Source: Eubacteriales bacterium
GTDB taxonomy: Bacteria > Bacillota > Clostridia > Lachnospirales > Lachnospiraceae
Length of the DNA: 64,000 bases
NCBI GenBank assembly: GCA_030536995.1
Contig: JAUNOY010000012.1
Location: forward strand, 1-64,000
Reading direction: 5' to 3'
How positions within the stretch are numbered: the stretch's first letter is position 1; the number at the start of each line of letters is the position of its first letter. The position numbers and the translations under genes were made by a program. Positions 12,144 through 61,955 of this stretch are shown here, in pieces. The notes below the pieces were generated by a model. It worked only from the letters and a program-made list of their open reading frames with translations. It made no database searches and had not been told where the DNA came from.

Positions 12144-12406
12144 TCCGCGCAGCCGGGGAGTTAGCGGTGCCCTATACCTGCAATCCGCTACAGCAGGGGT
12201 GATGCCAATCCGAGGCTTGTCTCCTGTGGAGCTGCCCTTTGTAAGTGGCGTTGACGTCTGGGTCTTACGCAACAGGAATCTGTGAACCGTGTCAGGGCAG
12301 GAATGCAGCAGCACTAAGCAGAAGCTCTTGTGTGCCGTAAGGGCGCCTGGGCCGAGTTAACTGCAGAGGTAACGTCTGTGGGACCATTCCGAAGTGCGGC
12401 GCGCGT
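12144..12406 (+). ncRNA. ffs: Signal recognition particle RNA, large bacterial type
   Basis: About 263 bases, the Bacillus-type RNA with an Alu domain. The universally conserved Ffh-binding region reads GAACCGTGTCAGGGCAGGAA then TGCAGCAGCACTAAGC, followed by TGTGCCGTAAGGGCGCCTGG and GCCGAGTTAACTGC, as in Bacillus scRNA. The two ends (CCGCGC and GCGCG) pair to close the long arm. With Ffh it targets nascent membrane and secreted proteins to FtsY. In Bacillus the gene also neighbours dnaX; here pfkA lies between. It has its own promoter and terminator. Exact ends are estimated to within a few bases. Confidence 0.93.
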
Positions 12407-23418: not shown

Positions 23419-24798
23419 ATGTATCAAATAGACTTTCATAAACCGCTTCACATCCATTTTATCGGAATTGGCGGAATCAGTATGAGCGGTCTTGCAGAAA
23501 TCCTGCTTGGCGAGAATTTCATGGTTTCCGGCTCTGATGCCAAAGAAAGTCCGCTCACCAAATCCCTCGAAAAGAAGGGTGCAAAAATTTATTACGGACA
23601 GCGCGCTTCCAATATTACAGACGAAGTAGAGGTTGTTGTCTACACAGCAGCTATCCACCCCGATAATCCGGAATATGCCTGCGCTGTTTCCAAAAATCTG
23701 CCAATGCTCACACGTGCGGAGCTTCTGGGCCAGATTATGCGCAACTATGAAACCCCCATCGCCATTGCAGGCACTCATGGCAAAACCACAACAACCTCTA
23801 TGGTTTCCCATATTCTTCTCGAGGGCAAATGCGACCCCACCATCAGTGTCGGGGGAATTCTTCCTGCTATCGGCGGAAATATCCGTGTAGGTGAATCAGA
23901 AACTTTTGTCACCGAAGCCTGCGAATACACAAACAGCTTTTTAAGCTTTTTTCCAAAAATCAGTATTATCCTGAACATTGATGCCGACCATCTCGATTTC
24001 TTCAAAGACCTTGACGATATCCGCCTCTCTTTCCGCCGCTTCGCAGAACTTCTGCCTGCAGATGGAACTCTGATCATAAATGCGGATATTCCTGACTACG
24101 AGGAAATCACACACGAACTTCCATGCAACGTCATCACCTACGGAATTAACAGCCCGGCAGATTACACAGTCTCCAATATTGCGTATGACAAGTACGGCCG
24201 CGCCTCCTTTGATGTGCTAAGAGACAATATTAAAGTCGGAAGCTATTACCTGAAAGTTCCGGGACTCCATAATGTTTCCAATGCTCTGGCATCCGCAGCC
24301 CTCGGGCATCTTCTCGGGCTTGATGAAGAAAGCATTATTAAAGGTCTTGGAAGCTTCACAGGAACAGACCGCCGTTTCCAGTATAAGGGCGAAGTCGGCG
24401 GTGTGACCGTAATTGACGATTACGCGCACCACCCTACAGAAATCGAAGCCACTTTAACTGCTTCACAAAATTATCCTCACAAAAAAATATGGTGCGTCTT
24501 CCAGCCTCATACATACACCCGTACCAAAGCTCTGCTCCCGGAATTTGCCCAGGCGCTTTCCCACGCAGACCATGTTGTTCTTGCCGATATTTATGCAGCA
24601 AGAGAAACTGATGACCTTGGAATCTCATCTGCCGATCTTCAAAAACTTATTGCAGAACTCGGCACTCCCTGCGAATACTTTGCAACCTTTGATGAGATTG
24701 AGAATTTTCTCCTTGAAAACTGCATCTCCGGAGACCTGCTCATCACTATGGGGGCCGGTGATGTCGTCAACATCGGAGAACATCTTTTAGGAAAATAA
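23419..24798 (+). CDS. murC: UDP-N-acetylmuramate--L-alanine ligase
   Basis: 459 residues. The N-terminal FIGIGGISMSGLAEILL binds the UDP moiety, AIAGTHGKTTTTSMVSHILL (about residues 115-134) is the ATP P-loop, and IDDYAHHPTEI is the conserved Mur ligase C-terminal motif. It adds L-Ala to UDP-MurNAc in peptidoglycan synthesis. AAGGAG lies seven bases before the ATG. The gene is alone, away from any division cluster, and has its own terminator. Confidence 0.96.
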   Translation: MYQIDFHKPLHIHFIGIGGISMSGLAEILLGENFMVSGSDAKESPLTKSLEKKGAKIYYGQRASNITDEVEVVVYTAAIHPDNPEYACAVSKNLPMLTRAELLGQIMRNYETPIAIAGTHGKTTTTSMVSHILLEGKCDPTISVGGILPAIGGNIRVGESETFVTEACEYTNSFLSFFPKISIILNIDADHLDFFKDLDDIRLSFRRFAELLPADGTLIINADIPDYEEITHELPCNVITYGINSPADYTVSNIAYDKYGRASFDVLRDNIKVGSYYLKVPGLHNVSNALASAALGHLLGLDEESIIKGLGSFTGTDRRFQYKGEVGGVTVIDDYAHHPTEIEATLTASQNYPHKKIWCVFQPHTYTRTKALLPEFAQALSHADHVVLADIYAARETDDLGISSADLQKLIAELGTPCEYFATFDEIENFLLENCISGDLLITMGAGDVVNIGEHLLGK

Positions 24799-24807
24799 AA
24801 ACTTTTA

Positions 24808-24860
24808 ACGGATCTGAACAAAGCCATGACGTACACCATGCGCTGTCAGATCCGTTTTTT
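24808..24860 (+). terminator. Terminator after murC
   Basis: AACGGATCTGA pairs with TCAGATCCGTT across a 28-base loop and is followed by a T tract. Confidence 0.65.
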
Positions 24861-24880: not shown

Positions 24881-25132
24881 TTATACACGTTTTATCCACA
24901 CCTTCAAAAGCCTTTATTTTCAAGGGCTTACAAAAGTTATCCACATTATCCACAGCGTTATACACATTTAACTCGTGAAATCTCTGTGGATTCTGATGTG
25001 TATAATTCACTTAACATAATCTGACATTTTTCTACAACAGAATTTGCGTATTTCTTACATTCTTCTTACATTTACCGGTTTCCAATAATTTATGACGGTT
25101 TACGTTTTTCCACATTATCCACATTATCCACA
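24881..25132. promoter_or_regulatory. Dense DnaA-box cluster upstream of helicase-loading genes
   Basis: Within 252 bases there are seven perfect matches to TTATNCACA. Six are on the plus strand (24892, 24937, 24946, 24958, 25115, 25124) and one on the minus strand (24997-25005). One-mismatch copies sit at 24881 and 25106. Several are directly abutting (24937/24946 and 25106/25115/25124), which favours cooperative DnaA assembly. Two subclusters flank a T/A-rich stretch (about 25006-25105). No dnaA, dnaN or rpmH lies nearby, so a DnaA-responsive promoter or titration site is more likely than the chromosome origin. The neighbouring genes encode helicase loaders. Confidence 0.85.
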
Positions 25133-25191
25133 CAGGATTGTGGAATAATCCGACTAAGACAAAATCAACTATTCTCTTTTAAAAGGGGTTG

Positions 25192-25200
25192 TGCTATAAT
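25192..25200 (+). promoter_or_regulatory. Extended -10 promoter of the dnaD-like operon
   Basis: TGCTATAAT is a perfect extended -10 (TGnTATAAT), about 48 bases before the dnaD-like gene and 60 bases after the last DnaA box. The -35 region (TTCTCT near 25172) is weak, as is common for activated promoters. Confidence 0.6.
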
Positions 25201-25247: not shown

Positions 25248-26276
25248 GTGTTTCGAATGATTACTCTTCGAAATTCCTCCCCAACGGAGGTTACTGTTTT
25301 ATCAAATTTATTTATTGACAACTATATGCCGAAAGCGAACGGCGAATTCGTCAAGGTTTACATCTATCTTCTCCGAACCCTCTCCTCCTGCGAAGAGCTC
25401 AGACTGGAGCAGATGGCAGACCGCCTTCTCTGTACAGAAAGAGATATTACCCGCGCCCTGAAATACTGGGAAGAAAAAGAACTGCTTTCACTGGAATGCA
25501 GCTCTCAGGGTGAACTTACCGGAATTCTTATGAAGTCGCCATCTTCCGACTCCTCCTGCGCTCCTTTGCAGGAAACAGCACCTCCCGTGAAGACAACCTC
25601 TCTCACTGCAGACCGTGTGAAGGAACTGAAACAGAACGAAGAAATCGTTCAGCTTCTTTATATAGCAGAACAATACCTTGGCAAAACTCTCACACCGGGC
25701 GAAATGAAAAAAATTCTGTTTTTCTACGATGAACTGAAGCTTTCCCCTGACCTAATCGAATATCTGATTGAATACAGTGTAAGCCGAGGGCGCAAAAGCA
25801 TCCGTTACATCGAAACCGTGGCGATGGCATGGGCACAGGAAGGCATTACCAGTGTCGCAATGGCAAAAGAAGCCAATTCCCGCTATGCCAAAGAATATTA
25901 TACCATCCTGAAAGCTATGGGAATCAGCAACCGAAACCCTATCGATACCGAAGTTTCCTTTATAAACACATGGCTTCACGATTACGGATTTACTATGGAT
26001 ATCATTCAGGAAGCCTGCAGCCGGACCGTTCTCCAGACAGGACAGCCAAGTTTCCAATATGCAGATAAAATTCTCTCAGGATGGAAACATAAAAGTGTAA
26101 AGAATATAGAAGATATACGTCGCTTAGATGCCCAGCACAAGCAGCGAAAACTGGAAAAAAGTCGGCAGCAAAGCAGCGCCAGACAGCAAAAACCTTCCAA
26201 TAATAACCGTTTCAATAATTTCCACCAGAGGGAATATGATTTCGATGAATATGAAAAAAAGCTGCTGAATCATTAA
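25248..26276 (+). CDS. DnaD-like replication initiation protein
   Basis: 342 residues. The N-terminal winged-helix-like region (about 1-90) resembles DnaD_N. Two copies of the DnaB_2/DnaD C-terminal domain follow, each carrying the hallmark Yxxx(I/V)xxxW: YIETVAMAW (about 183-191) and YADKILSGW (about 273-281). The C-terminal tail is basic and glutamine-rich. DnaD/DnaB proteins help load replicative helicase at DnaA-bound origins and during restart. Start is GTG 25248 or ATG 25257, three codons apart; the ribosome site does not decide. It is followed after 44 bases by the DnaC/DnaI-like ATPase. Confidence 0.86.
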   Translation: MFRMITLRNSSPTEVTVLSNLFIDNYMPKANGEFVKVYIYLLRTLSSCEELRLEQMADRLLCTERDITRALKYWEEKELLSLECSSQGELTGILMKSPSSDSSCAPLQETAPPVKTTSLTADRVKELKQNEEIVQLLYIAEQYLGKTLTPGEMKKILFFYDELKLSPDLIEYLIEYSVSRGRKSIRYIETVAMAWAQEGITSVAMAKEANSRYAKEYYTILKAMGISNRNPIDTEVSFINTWLHDYGFTMDIIQEACSRTVLQTGQPSFQYADKILSGWKHKSVKNIEDIRRLDAQHKQRKLEKSRQQSSARQQKPSNNNRFNNFHQREYDFDEYEKKLLNH

Positions 26277-26320: not shown

Positions 26321-27307
26321 ATGCCTTTGCAAAATTTTCAGTATGATACTATCATGAGGGAATATAATAAGATACAGGCCAAAAATCGGCATCTTTTGGA
26401 AGTACGCACAAGAGAAGCCTATAACAAAATTCCCCGTCTCCGAGAAATAGATGAAGAAGTGGCCTCTTTAAGCGCTTCCAAAGCACGTGCTTTGTTGAGC
26501 GGAAGCAACGAAAGTCTCTCTGATCTAAGGGAATCCATAGCTCTTCTGGCACAGGAGCGTTCTGCTCTCCTTGCCTGCGGAGGTTATCCCGACAATTATC
26601 TGGAACTTCCCTATGACTGTTCTTTATGTCAGGATACCGGCTATGTAGGGAGCAAAAAATGCACCTGTTTTAAAAAAGCAGAGATAGAATTGCTCTATAC
26701 ACAGTCAAATTTGAAAGAAATTCTTAAAAAAGAGAACTTTGACCACTTTTCTTTTGATTACTATTCTGATACAATGAAGAACGAAGCAACAGGGCTCACC
26801 GAGCGACAGACTGCACGGCGCGCCTATGATATAGCCAGAAGCTTTGTCAAAAATTTTGACACCTCCTTTGAGAATCTCTTTCTCTACGGGGATACGGGAG
26901 TTGGCAAAACATTTCTTTCCCACTGCATTGCCCATGAGCTTCTGGAATCTGCACATTGTGTTATGTATTTCTCTGCATTCGACCTTTTCGATCTCCTTGC
27001 AGGGTCTGCATTTTCCCGAAAGGAAGACACAAGCGCAGAGGAATTTGTTTTTGACAGCGATCTTCTGATTATTGACGACCTGGGAACTGAACTCACCAAC
27101 AGTTTTGTCTCTTCCCAGTTGTTTTTGTGCATTAATGAGAGGATTATGCGCAGAAAGCCAACAATTATTTCTACAAACCTGAAACTTGAAAACTTTTCGG
27201 AAACCTATTCCGAGAGAACTTTTTCCCGAATCGCCAGCAATTACCATATGGTAAAATTAGTCGGGAAGGATATCCGAATACAGAAAATTTTTTTAGGAGG
27301 AAAATAA
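26321..27307 (+). CDS. DnaC/DnaI-like helicase-loader ATPase
   Basis: 328 residues. A zinc-binding motif sits in the N-terminal half (CSLCQDTGYVGSKKCTC, about residues 91-108), as in DnaI. The AAA+ domain has Walker A YGDTGVGKTFLSH (about 189-201), Walker B LLIIDDLGTE and a C-terminal arginine-finger segment YSERTFSRIASNYH. It loads the replicative helicase onto DNA. AAGGAG lies seven bases before the ATG. It is co-transcribed with the DnaD-like gene and runs into prs after three bases. Confidence 0.9.
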   Translation: MPLQNFQYDTIMREYNKIQAKNRHLLEVRTREAYNKIPRLREIDEEVASLSASKARALLSGSNESLSDLRESIALLAQERSALLACGGYPDNYLELPYDCSLCQDTGYVGSKKCTCFKKAEIELLYTQSNLKEILKKENFDHFSFDYYSDTMKNEATGLTERQTARRAYDIARSFVKNFDTSFENLFLYGDTGVGKTFLSHCIAHELLESAHCVMYFSAFDLFDLLAGSAFSRKEDTSAEEFVFDSDLLIIDDLGTELTNSFVSSQLFLCINERIMRRKPTIISTNLKLENFSETYSERTFSRIASNYHMVKLVGKDIRIQKIFLGGK

Positions 27308-27310
27308 CGC

Positions 27311-28495
27311 ATGGCACAGGTAACTACAAAAGATTTAACTACACTCCCGGTTGGAAGACTTGGTCTGATACCATTAGTAAGCTGCAAGGATCTTGGTGAC
27401 AAGGTAAACGACTGGCTTGTAAAGTGGCGTCATGAACGTCAGCATAAAGAATTGGAATCCTTTGCGTTTGAAGGATATCAGCGAGATTCTTATGAAATCC
27501 AGGTTCAGAACGCCCGTTTCGGTTCCGGTGAAGCGAAATGCTCCATTTCCGAATCCGTTCGCGGCGACGATATCTATATCATGGTAGATGTATGCAACTA
27601 CAGCATCACCTACTCCATCGGACAGTACACAAATCTGATGTCCCCTGATGACCATTTTCAGGATCTGAAACGTGTAATCGGCGCCATCAGCGGAAAGGCA
27701 AGAAGAATCAACGTAATCATGCCTTACCTCTACGAGAGCCGCCAGAGCATTCGTCAGGGAAGAGAATCTCTTGACTGCGCTACCGCTCTTCAGGAACTGG
27801 TAAACATGGGTGTTGAGAACATCATTACTTTCGACGCACACGATGCACGTATTCAGAATGCCACACCTCTCCACGGCTTCGAAACTGTTCAGCCTTCCTA
27901 TCAGTTTATCAAGGCTCTTCTCAAAAATGAAGAAGGTCTTCATATTGACAACGACCATTTTATGGTTGTCAGCCCTGATGAAGGAAGCATGAGCCGTGCC
28001 ATTTATCTTGCAAATATTCTCGGCGTCGATATGGGTATGTACTATAAACGTCTTGATTACTCCAAGCTGGTAAACGGACGTCATCCTATCGCAGCTTACG
28101 AGTTCCTTGGCCCTAACCTCAAAGGAAAGGACGTTATGCTTGTAGATGATATGATTTCCTCAGGCTCTACCATCCTTAAAATCGCCTCTCTTCTGAAAGA
28201 AAGAGGAGCCGGCAGAATTTATATCTGCTCAACTTTTGGTCTGTTTACAAACGGTCTGGAAAAATTCGATGAGGCACAGAAAAACGGCATATTTGACAAG
28301 CTCCTTACCACAAACCTGATTTATCAGGCTCCGGAGCTTCTTGCACGTGACTACTATATCACCTGTGATATGAGCAAATATATCGCTCTGATCATTGACA
28401 CTCTGAACCACGACTTATCTGTCAGCCATCTTCTCAATCCTGTTGACAGAATTAAACGCTGCGTAAACAACTACATGGCACAGTATGAAAAATAA
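27311..28495 (+). CDS. prs: Ribose-phosphate pyrophosphokinase (long clostridial form)
   Basis: 394 residues, longer than the usual 310-320. It contains the N-terminal segment NARFGSGEAKCSISESVRGDD-like region (about residues 70-90, the Prs nucleotide loop), MPYLYESRQ, and the PRPP-binding motif DVMLVDDMISSGST (about 275-288). It makes PRPP for nucleotide, histidine and tryptophan synthesis. It starts three bases behind the helicase loader with GGAGG, so PRPP supply and replication initiation genes share one transcript here. Confidence 0.88.
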   Translation: MAQVTTKDLTTLPVGRLGLIPLVSCKDLGDKVNDWLVKWRHERQHKELESFAFEGYQRDSYEIQVQNARFGSGEAKCSISESVRGDDIYIMVDVCNYSITYSIGQYTNLMSPDDHFQDLKRVIGAISGKARRINVIMPYLYESRQSIRQGRESLDCATALQELVNMGVENIITFDAHDARIQNATPLHGFETVQPSYQFIKALLKNEEGLHIDNDHFMVVSPDEGSMSRAIYLANILGVDMGMYYKRLDYSKLVNGRHPIAAYEFLGPNLKGKDVMLVDDMISSGSTILKIASLLKERGAGRIYICSTFGLFTNGLEKFDEAQKNGIFDKLLTTNLIYQAPELLARDYYITCDMSKYIALIIDTLNHDLSVSHLLNPVDRIKRCVNNYMAQYEK

Positions 28496-61849: not shown

Positions 61850-61955
61850 CATGTAGCAACGGGTGCGGAAAATATATCGTAAGCAACTATCTGCTTTTCG
61901 TTCCACGGCGACTCCCCAGCCAGTGAACACTTGACGCATAAATTCCTACTTCGCT
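61850..61955 (-). ncRNA. Probable THF (tetrahydrofolate) riboswitch
   Basis: In the minus-strand folT leader, GUAG and CUAC close the element. The conserved run GCGUCAAGUGU then a hairpin CACUGGC-UGGGGAGUC-GCCGUG and AACGAAAAGC match the THF aptamer pattern (RF01831) as I remember it. Downstream, CCGCACCCGUUGCUAC completes it. Exact helix pairing was judged by eye. The promoter at 61973 places it at the 5' end. A short hairpin before the ribosome site may be the expression platform; no T tract follows. Confidence 0.72.

Follow-up and report, generated by a model that had tools for sequence, protein, structure and literature searches.

Genes at the murC-dnaD locus

The window, by which we mean the whole 64-kb stretch of DNA that was analysed, is contig C30 of a 2.83-Mb draft genome that is 92% complete. 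In it, murC, a cluster of DnaA boxes, a dnaD/B-like gene, a dnaI-like gene and prs follow one another co-directionally on the plus strand. murC (23419..24798, +) matches TIGR01082 at 470 bits (cut-off 335), and direct reading of the DNA behind it revealed a terminator-like hairpin on the same strand with a 10-bp perfect stem, a long loop and a T run (24808..24860), which a simple scan missed because it permits loops of only 3-8. The first gene after the boxes (25248..26276, +) encodes a DnaD/DnaB-like co-loader with two DnaB_2 stretches (PF07261, 139 bits); it is listed with a GTG start, with an ATG at 25257, and is the sole DnaB_2-domain gene found in the 92% complete assembly. It is followed by a gene for a DnaI-like AAA+ helicase loader of the PRK06835 type (26321..27307, +; NF005304, 365.5 bits, cut-off 215), whose nearest named matches, among the best 80 named loci, are Blautia and other Lachnospiraceae records. 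Third comes a prs-like gene for a phosphoribosylpyrophosphate synthetase of the PRK06827 type (27311..28495, +; NF005299, 547 bits, cut-off 327). These profile matches bear out the gene calls of an earlier note on this DNA (DnaD-like, DnaC/DnaI-like and prs), as does the position of dnaA on another contig, C3, its statement that no dnaA lies close to the cluster.

Among the best-80 named loci, all 79 with at least 600 bp of sequence after DnaI carry a same-strand prs behind it, at a median gap of 61 bp and a largest gap of 428 bp. The co-loader, the loader and the nucleotide-precursor enzyme may be jointly controlled. Since a second prs-like gene is present at G000:C35:758-1207, the prs of the operon is probably not the sole PRPP synthetase gene. 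An Rfam scan of the window returned only a large SRP RNA (12145-12406, +), a THF riboswitch (61855-61955, -) and tRNA.

Two arrays of DnaA boxes lie upstream of the loader genes

A pattern search of the window located seven exact TTATNCACA sites within 24892-25132, starting at 24892, 24937, 24946, 24958, 25115 and 25124 on the plus strand and at 24997 on the minus strand. The window holds 16 such sites in total, compared with a mean of 2.65 and a maximum of 8 in 100 dinucleotide shuffles. The search and the shuffles thus confirmed the seven exact boxes, abutting pairs and two near-matches that had been described.

The cluster begins with the near-match TTATACACG, found by reading the sequence (24881..24889, +), and an exact TTATCCACA box (24892..24900, +). 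Two exactly abutting boxes, TTATCCACATTATCCACA, then open the distal array (24937..24954, +); these 18 bases are identical in seven of nine aligned Blautia-type regions and carry one mismatch in the remaining two. A third distal box, TTATACACA (24958..24966, +), stands 3 bp further on at a pitch of 12 bp from the second, a pitch counted 20 times over the 139 upstream regions described below, and an exact TTATACACA box in reverse orientation (24997..25005, -), also present in some close relatives, ends the array. The proximal array (25106..25132, +) comprises the near-match TTTTCCACA (25106-25114) and the second exactly abutting pair, 25115/25124, so that it consists of three abutting units once the near-match is counted.

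The spacer between the arrays (25006-25105) had been singled out as T/A-rich; it is indeed AT-richer than its intergenic neighbours, but only slightly so (70% versus 65-67%). Within it lies TTAACATAA (25011..25019, +), a form of a recurrent TTNACATAA element that occurs in 56 of the 139 regions, while 20 sets of shuffles gave a mean of 3.2 and a maximum of 9. Relative to the first exact abutting pair, which could be placed in 46 of these regions, the element lies 59-63 bp after in 20, 72-74 bp after in 13, 52 bp after in 1 and upstream in 12.

In the whole assembly (92% complete) we counted 195 boxes versus 74 matches to the reversed pattern. Two same-strand boxes separated by a gap of 0-30 bp are confined to four places, namely oriC/dnaA, C9:1277, C28:51740 and the murC-dnaD locus, and the reversed control gave none. 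At the second of these (G000:C9:1277-1315, L041) two boxes whose starts are 30 bp apart are inside an ORF that by eye resembles a sensor histidine kinase gene. The third (G000:C28:51740-51769, L003/L004) is a three-box cluster in a convergent gap between two gene 3' ends, which we take to be those of a V-ATPase subunit D-like gene and an NlpC/P60-like gene; it looks like a plain titration-type site.

The cluster is conserved in the lineage

A match was obtained in 118 of 120 family genomes, the window's own genome included, and upstream DNA was taken from 70 of them. With those of the named loci described below these made 149 regions, one of which is the window's own, and 139 were left once short or identical sequences had been taken out. 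At least one exact box was present in 126 of these 139 distinct Lachnospiraceae-type upstream regions, at least two in 102 and at least three in 79, and the search of relatives proposed in the earlier note therefore found the cluster conserved in the lineage. Box density was compared at 79 named loci, that is, the best 80 less L086, which lacks a DnaD match; L107, L119 and L136 were kept despite their short upstream DNA. At these loci, 233 boxes fell in 46.4 kb upstream of the genes versus 56 in 867 kb of flanking DNA, a 78-fold higher density, and the reversed-pattern control gave 5 and 41 matches, respectively. When one mismatch was allowed, upstream DNA contained 11.4 boxes per kb inside the family and 0.19 outside it, compared with 0.31 and 0.37 in shuffles.

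The arrangement of the boxes is conserved as well. Across the 139 regions, 369 of 397 boxes are oriented toward the gene, 341 are TTATCCACA, and the commonest plus-strand pitch is 9 bp, or directly abutting (103 of 145 pitches of at most 40 bp). When nine Blautia-type sequences are aligned, the two arrays and the promoter are retained, with a mean column identity of 50%. The distal pair begins no more than 3 bp from the murC stop in 64 of 79 relatives in which this distance was measured; the window differs in having the hairpin and 138 bp in between. Where two arrays are present, the distance from the start of one to the start of the other is 142-192 bp at 63 of 84 loci. These sequences mark the cluster as a promoter element conserved in the lineage.

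No exact box was found in 13 of the 139 regions. Of the 14 box-less loci present before duplicates were removed, six have no box within one mismatch, five have one and three have two to seven. The six without any such box in 600 bp are L022, L060, L104 (labelled Blautia), L105, L124 and L143; L105 has five boxes elsewhere in its locus. Such box-less members are natural loss variants worth comparing.

The proximal array keeps a stepped distance to a predicted extended -10 promoter

Between the proximal array and the dnaD/B-like gene we predict from sequence an extended -10 element, TGCTATAAT (25192..25200, +; hexamer at 25195-25200), which is preceded at a 17-bp spacer by the weak -35-like hexamer TTCTCT (25172..25177, +); a simple promoter scan of the window missed this predicted promoter with its weak -35. 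A TGNTATAAT-like extended -10 lies behind the boxes in 102 of the 120 loci that have a box 50-330 bp ahead of the start, compared with 6% in shuffles. The element was identified in 124 of the 139 regions, and the -35 position in these (the window's own included) reads TTCTCA in 27 and TTCTCT in 21, the best match to TTGACA reaching at most 4 of 6 positions in 122. The locus thus has several consensus boxes upstream of a predicted promoter, as is expected of a DnaA-regulated promoter.

The proximal array keeps stepped distances of about 66, 76, 86 and 96 bp to the extended -10, steps that are near one helical turn; in the window it starts 89 bp upstream of the -10. Three-box proximal arrays with clean flanks (n=39) start 66, 76, 85-89, 95-97 and 106-107 bp before the -10 (R 0.91 at period 10; jitter null 0/1000), and two-box arrays with clean flanks (n=28) start at 64, 76-78, 84-87 and 97 bp, with outliers at 112 and 119 (R 0.78 at period 11; jitter null 0/1000). 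The length of the 5'UTR shows no period (R 0.105), and neither do single-box loci (R 0.22 at 10.5, n=24).

Independent pairs were drawn from a MurC tree. For the proximal register, pairs differing by more than 4 bp (n=16) differed by 7 to 33 bp, with a mean cosine of 0.46 at 10-10.5 bp, which gives the register partial support. Clean arrays only gave a mixed picture: 22 of 30 independent pairs differ by at most 2 bp, and the others by 8, 8, 10, 20, 21, 22, 23 and 26 bp. Boxes that abut repeat every 9 bp, which in part imitates a 10-bp period (R at 9 of 0.46 and 0.75); this pitch is a partial confounder, so we treat helical phasing of the proximal array to the -10 as suggestive. For the distal array, an overall 11-bp periodicity to the -10 (R 0.51) is significant over all loci but is lost on independent pairs (mean cosine 0.15, n=17), and distal phasing was accordingly rejected as unsupported. 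The distance from the murC stop to the array was discarded as a phasing control, being near constant (no difference in 24 of 36 independent pairs). A Spo0A-type box that stands beside TTTACATAAT in some aligned relatives was set aside, since the window is without it.

Box clusters are seen only behind murC

Outside the family, 60 genomes were fetched from 196 class genomes searched, covering 35 families (58 of the class outside the order and 2 of the order). An ORF lies directly before dnaI in 59 of them (L244 has none), and 57 of these ORFs match the family-built DnaD profile (those of L224 and L231 do not); L196 and L213 offered only 170 and 62 bp of upstream sequence. In the 34.4 kb upstream of dnaD-dnaI in these 60 genomes there was no box cluster and just 1 box, equal to the reversed-pattern control, and the 134.7 kb examined around these loci held 9 boxes in all. 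Boxes do occur at 28 of 30 dnaA loci from genomes of the class or the same order, which speaks against an altered DnaA specificity. Lack of conservation, which the earlier note would have held against its reading, thus fails as an objection within the lineage and would apply only beyond it.

The gene upstream differs as well, with MurC on the same strand at all 144 family loci tested and at 0 of 53 loci outside the family. Elsewhere in the order, 51 genomes were found and 42 examined: at least two boxes were present in 18 of 30 sets with MurC upstream and in 0 of 12 without MurC, three of which were poorly testable (L290 and L315 have truncated sequence, L291 lacks a DnaD match). In the genomes examined, box clusters were seen only behind murC. 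The simplest history would be one relocation behind murC with gain of boxes within the order, followed by losses, and a large gut-bacterial group appears to have gained a DnaA-responsive switch before its helicase-loader genes.

Probable DnaA control of loader transcription and its alternatives

We consider it probable that the cluster makes the promoter of the dnaD/B-like gene, the dnaI-like gene and probably prs responsive to DnaA. The earlier note had proposed that DnaA could regulate its own helicase-loading genes, and the conservation of the boxes, their orientation and their register with the predicted promoter lend support to this proposal. DnaA would bind, possibly in a nucleotide-dependent manner, the distal array behind murC and the proximal array, whose start is mostly 76-97 bp upstream of the -10. 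Proximal DnaA would most likely contact RNA polymerase from one helix face, in a class-I-like activation, while the distal array would contribute cooperativity or a loop. Loader supply would then track the amount or activity of DnaA. We favour an action on RNA polymerase because orientation, upstream position, register and a weak -35 occur together, and activation is the sign toward which we lean, with substantial weight left for repression. Since B. subtilis DnaD is described in a passage of PMC5295017 as inhibiting cooperative DnaA binding, feedback is also conceivable: the loader could damp DnaA at its own promoter, if the protein here acts like B. subtilis DnaD.

A fuller account at the level of the order would have the loader genes move behind murC and gain boxes, with DnaA, bound to arrays in helical phase, determining how much is made of the one DnaD/B-family co-loader found, of the loader and of a PRPP synthetase, subject to DnaD-type feedback. 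With all of its parts, this account is plausible but falls just short of an even chance.

A serious alternative, albeit one that we regard as doubtful, is that the same sites repress. DnaA would form a loop or filament over both arrays and shut the promoter, so that high DnaA lowers loader synthesis in a negative feedback like dnaA autoregulation. The 142-192 bp between arrays at most two-array loci and the overall 11-bp periodicity of the distal array are consistent with such a loop, and in a B. subtilis passage of PMC4447404 five of the six DnaA targets named are repressed and one is activated, which counts against activation. However, the boxes lie upstream of the promoter rather than overlapping it, the weak -35 fits an activator, some relatives retain proximal boxes only, and the register is tightest between the proximal array and the -10, while that of the distal array fails on independent pairs.

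Improbable, in our judgement, is that the locus is a DnaA titration cluster (DBC) whose place in this gap is incidental and whose main role is to buffer free DnaA, the genes being little affected. Like a DBC, the locus has several consensus boxes outside oriC, seven in number, and the assembly has just three other clustered places, among them the C28 cluster that resembles a plain titration site. Sites of the datA or DARS type have accessory IHF- or Fis-type sites and act through DnaA nucleotide exchange or hydrolysis. In B. subtilis, removal of six clusters outside oriC leads to early initiation according to a passage of PMC5295017. However, a pure titration site need not keep its orientation, its register with the -10 or its link to one gene set throughout a lineage. 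The suggestion that the cluster titrates DnaA is thus compatible with the cluster itself but leaves its register with the promoter unexplained; titration and promoter control may coexist.

Position relative to the origin

The dnaA gene on contig C3 has boxes on both sides and an adjoining reading frame identified by eye as rpmH; the murC-dnaD locus does not share the linkage to dnaA, dnaN and rpmH that marks oriC in this phylum. In a table of 29 genomes compiled by hand, with rounded lengths for G046, G085 and G273, dnaA and dnaI are 44-1258 kb apart in 12 same-order genomes with both genes on one contig (median 252 kb), against a median of 68 kb for 17 genomes that belong to the class but not to the order. 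G327, an order genome that lacks both boxes and an upstream MurC and has a DnaA-like match roughly 3 kb from dnaI, is left out of the table. Replication meets the dnaD-dnaI genes head-on in 11 of the 12 order and 14 of the 17 class genomes tabulated; because this orientation is common to box-less genomes, we do not tie it to the boxes. No run of the DnaA-trio pattern was found in the region, and the same pattern gave none on the dnaA-dnaN side of oriC. We also considered TTTACATAA, which occurs 25 times on the plus strand in 46 kb upstream of dnaD versus 20 times in 869 kb elsewhere, as an oriC element and rejected it, with 6 matches in 109 kb of dnaA loci.

That the locus is a second or conditional replication origin, or a second initiation zone as had been suggested, is very improbable. 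In its number of boxes, and in having an array on either side of a slightly AT-richer stretch, the locus is like a bipartite origin, and one paper's title reports recruitment of DnaD and DnaB to regions bound by DnaA in B. subtilis. Against this, oriC sits at rpmH-dnaA-dnaN on another contig, the distance to dnaA is variable, and GC skew keeps a negative sign in each of the window's 16 4-kb bins.

Comparison with known systems

If DnaA controls the promoter, as we prefer to read the cluster, the supply of loading machinery would be directly tied to the initiator protein. On the fuller account at the level of the order, the capacity for initiation, beyond DnaA activity, would be licensed by loader transcription across a dominant gut-bacterial group. 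The lineage-wide gain offers a natural experiment, namely the same genes with and without DnaA control, in which it becomes testable whether helicase loading limits initiation in Lachnospiraceae, and the element provides a compact sequence signature for regulatory annotation.

DnaA is already known as a transcription factor. It regulates the dnaA, nrdAB and Caulobacter dnaB helicase promoters, according to passages of PMC8203912, and the locus resembles these in that replication or precursor genes are the targets, but differs in that the targets here would be a helicase loader, a DnaD/B co-loader and prs. The dnaC operon of E. coli is unchanged in a dnaA46 mutant, as stated in a passage of PMC2500167. 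Initiator control of a helicase loader does not appear in the review passages or among the strongest B. subtilis targets in the portions of PMC8203912, PMC5295017 and PMC4447404 consulted, and no title or abstract found in the open literature reports DnaA boxes upstream of dnaD-dnaI.

The multi-box DnaA regions outside oriC of B. subtilis, at ywcI/vpr, gcp/ydiF, trmE, ywlC, yqeG/sda and yydA (passages of PMC4447404), offer a close parallel. These clusters regulate genes or titrate DnaA (passages of PMC4447404 and PMC5295017), several of them acting on adjacent promoters (PMC4447404). They differ in that dnaB-dnaI is absent from the eight strongest regions listed in the passage, out of 269 in the paper (PMC4447404), and in that the boxes at murC-dnaD are mostly abutting head-to-tail, unlike those of B. 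subtilis DnaA-bound regions. Compared with oriC of the same lineage, the box consensus TTATCCACA is common to both, but the oriC/dnaA loci of 26 family genomes favour an 11-bp same-strand pitch (14 of 46 pitches of at most 40 bp, with only 6 of 46 at 9 bp) and use both strands.

A homologous gene pair is known from C. difficile, CD3653-CD3654, in which CD3653 has the domain order DDBH1-DDBH2-DDBH2 (passage of PMC5204125). As in that pair and in B. subtilis dnaB-dnaI, a DnaD/B-family co-loader is adjacent to a DnaI-type loader. The difference, judged from the sampled genomes rather than from those two loci, is that the pair is without a box cluster in the 60 outside genomes and has MurC upstream in 0 of 53. 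As far as the open literature shows, a DnaA-controlled loader operon would represent a new target and a new architecture within a known kind of regulation.
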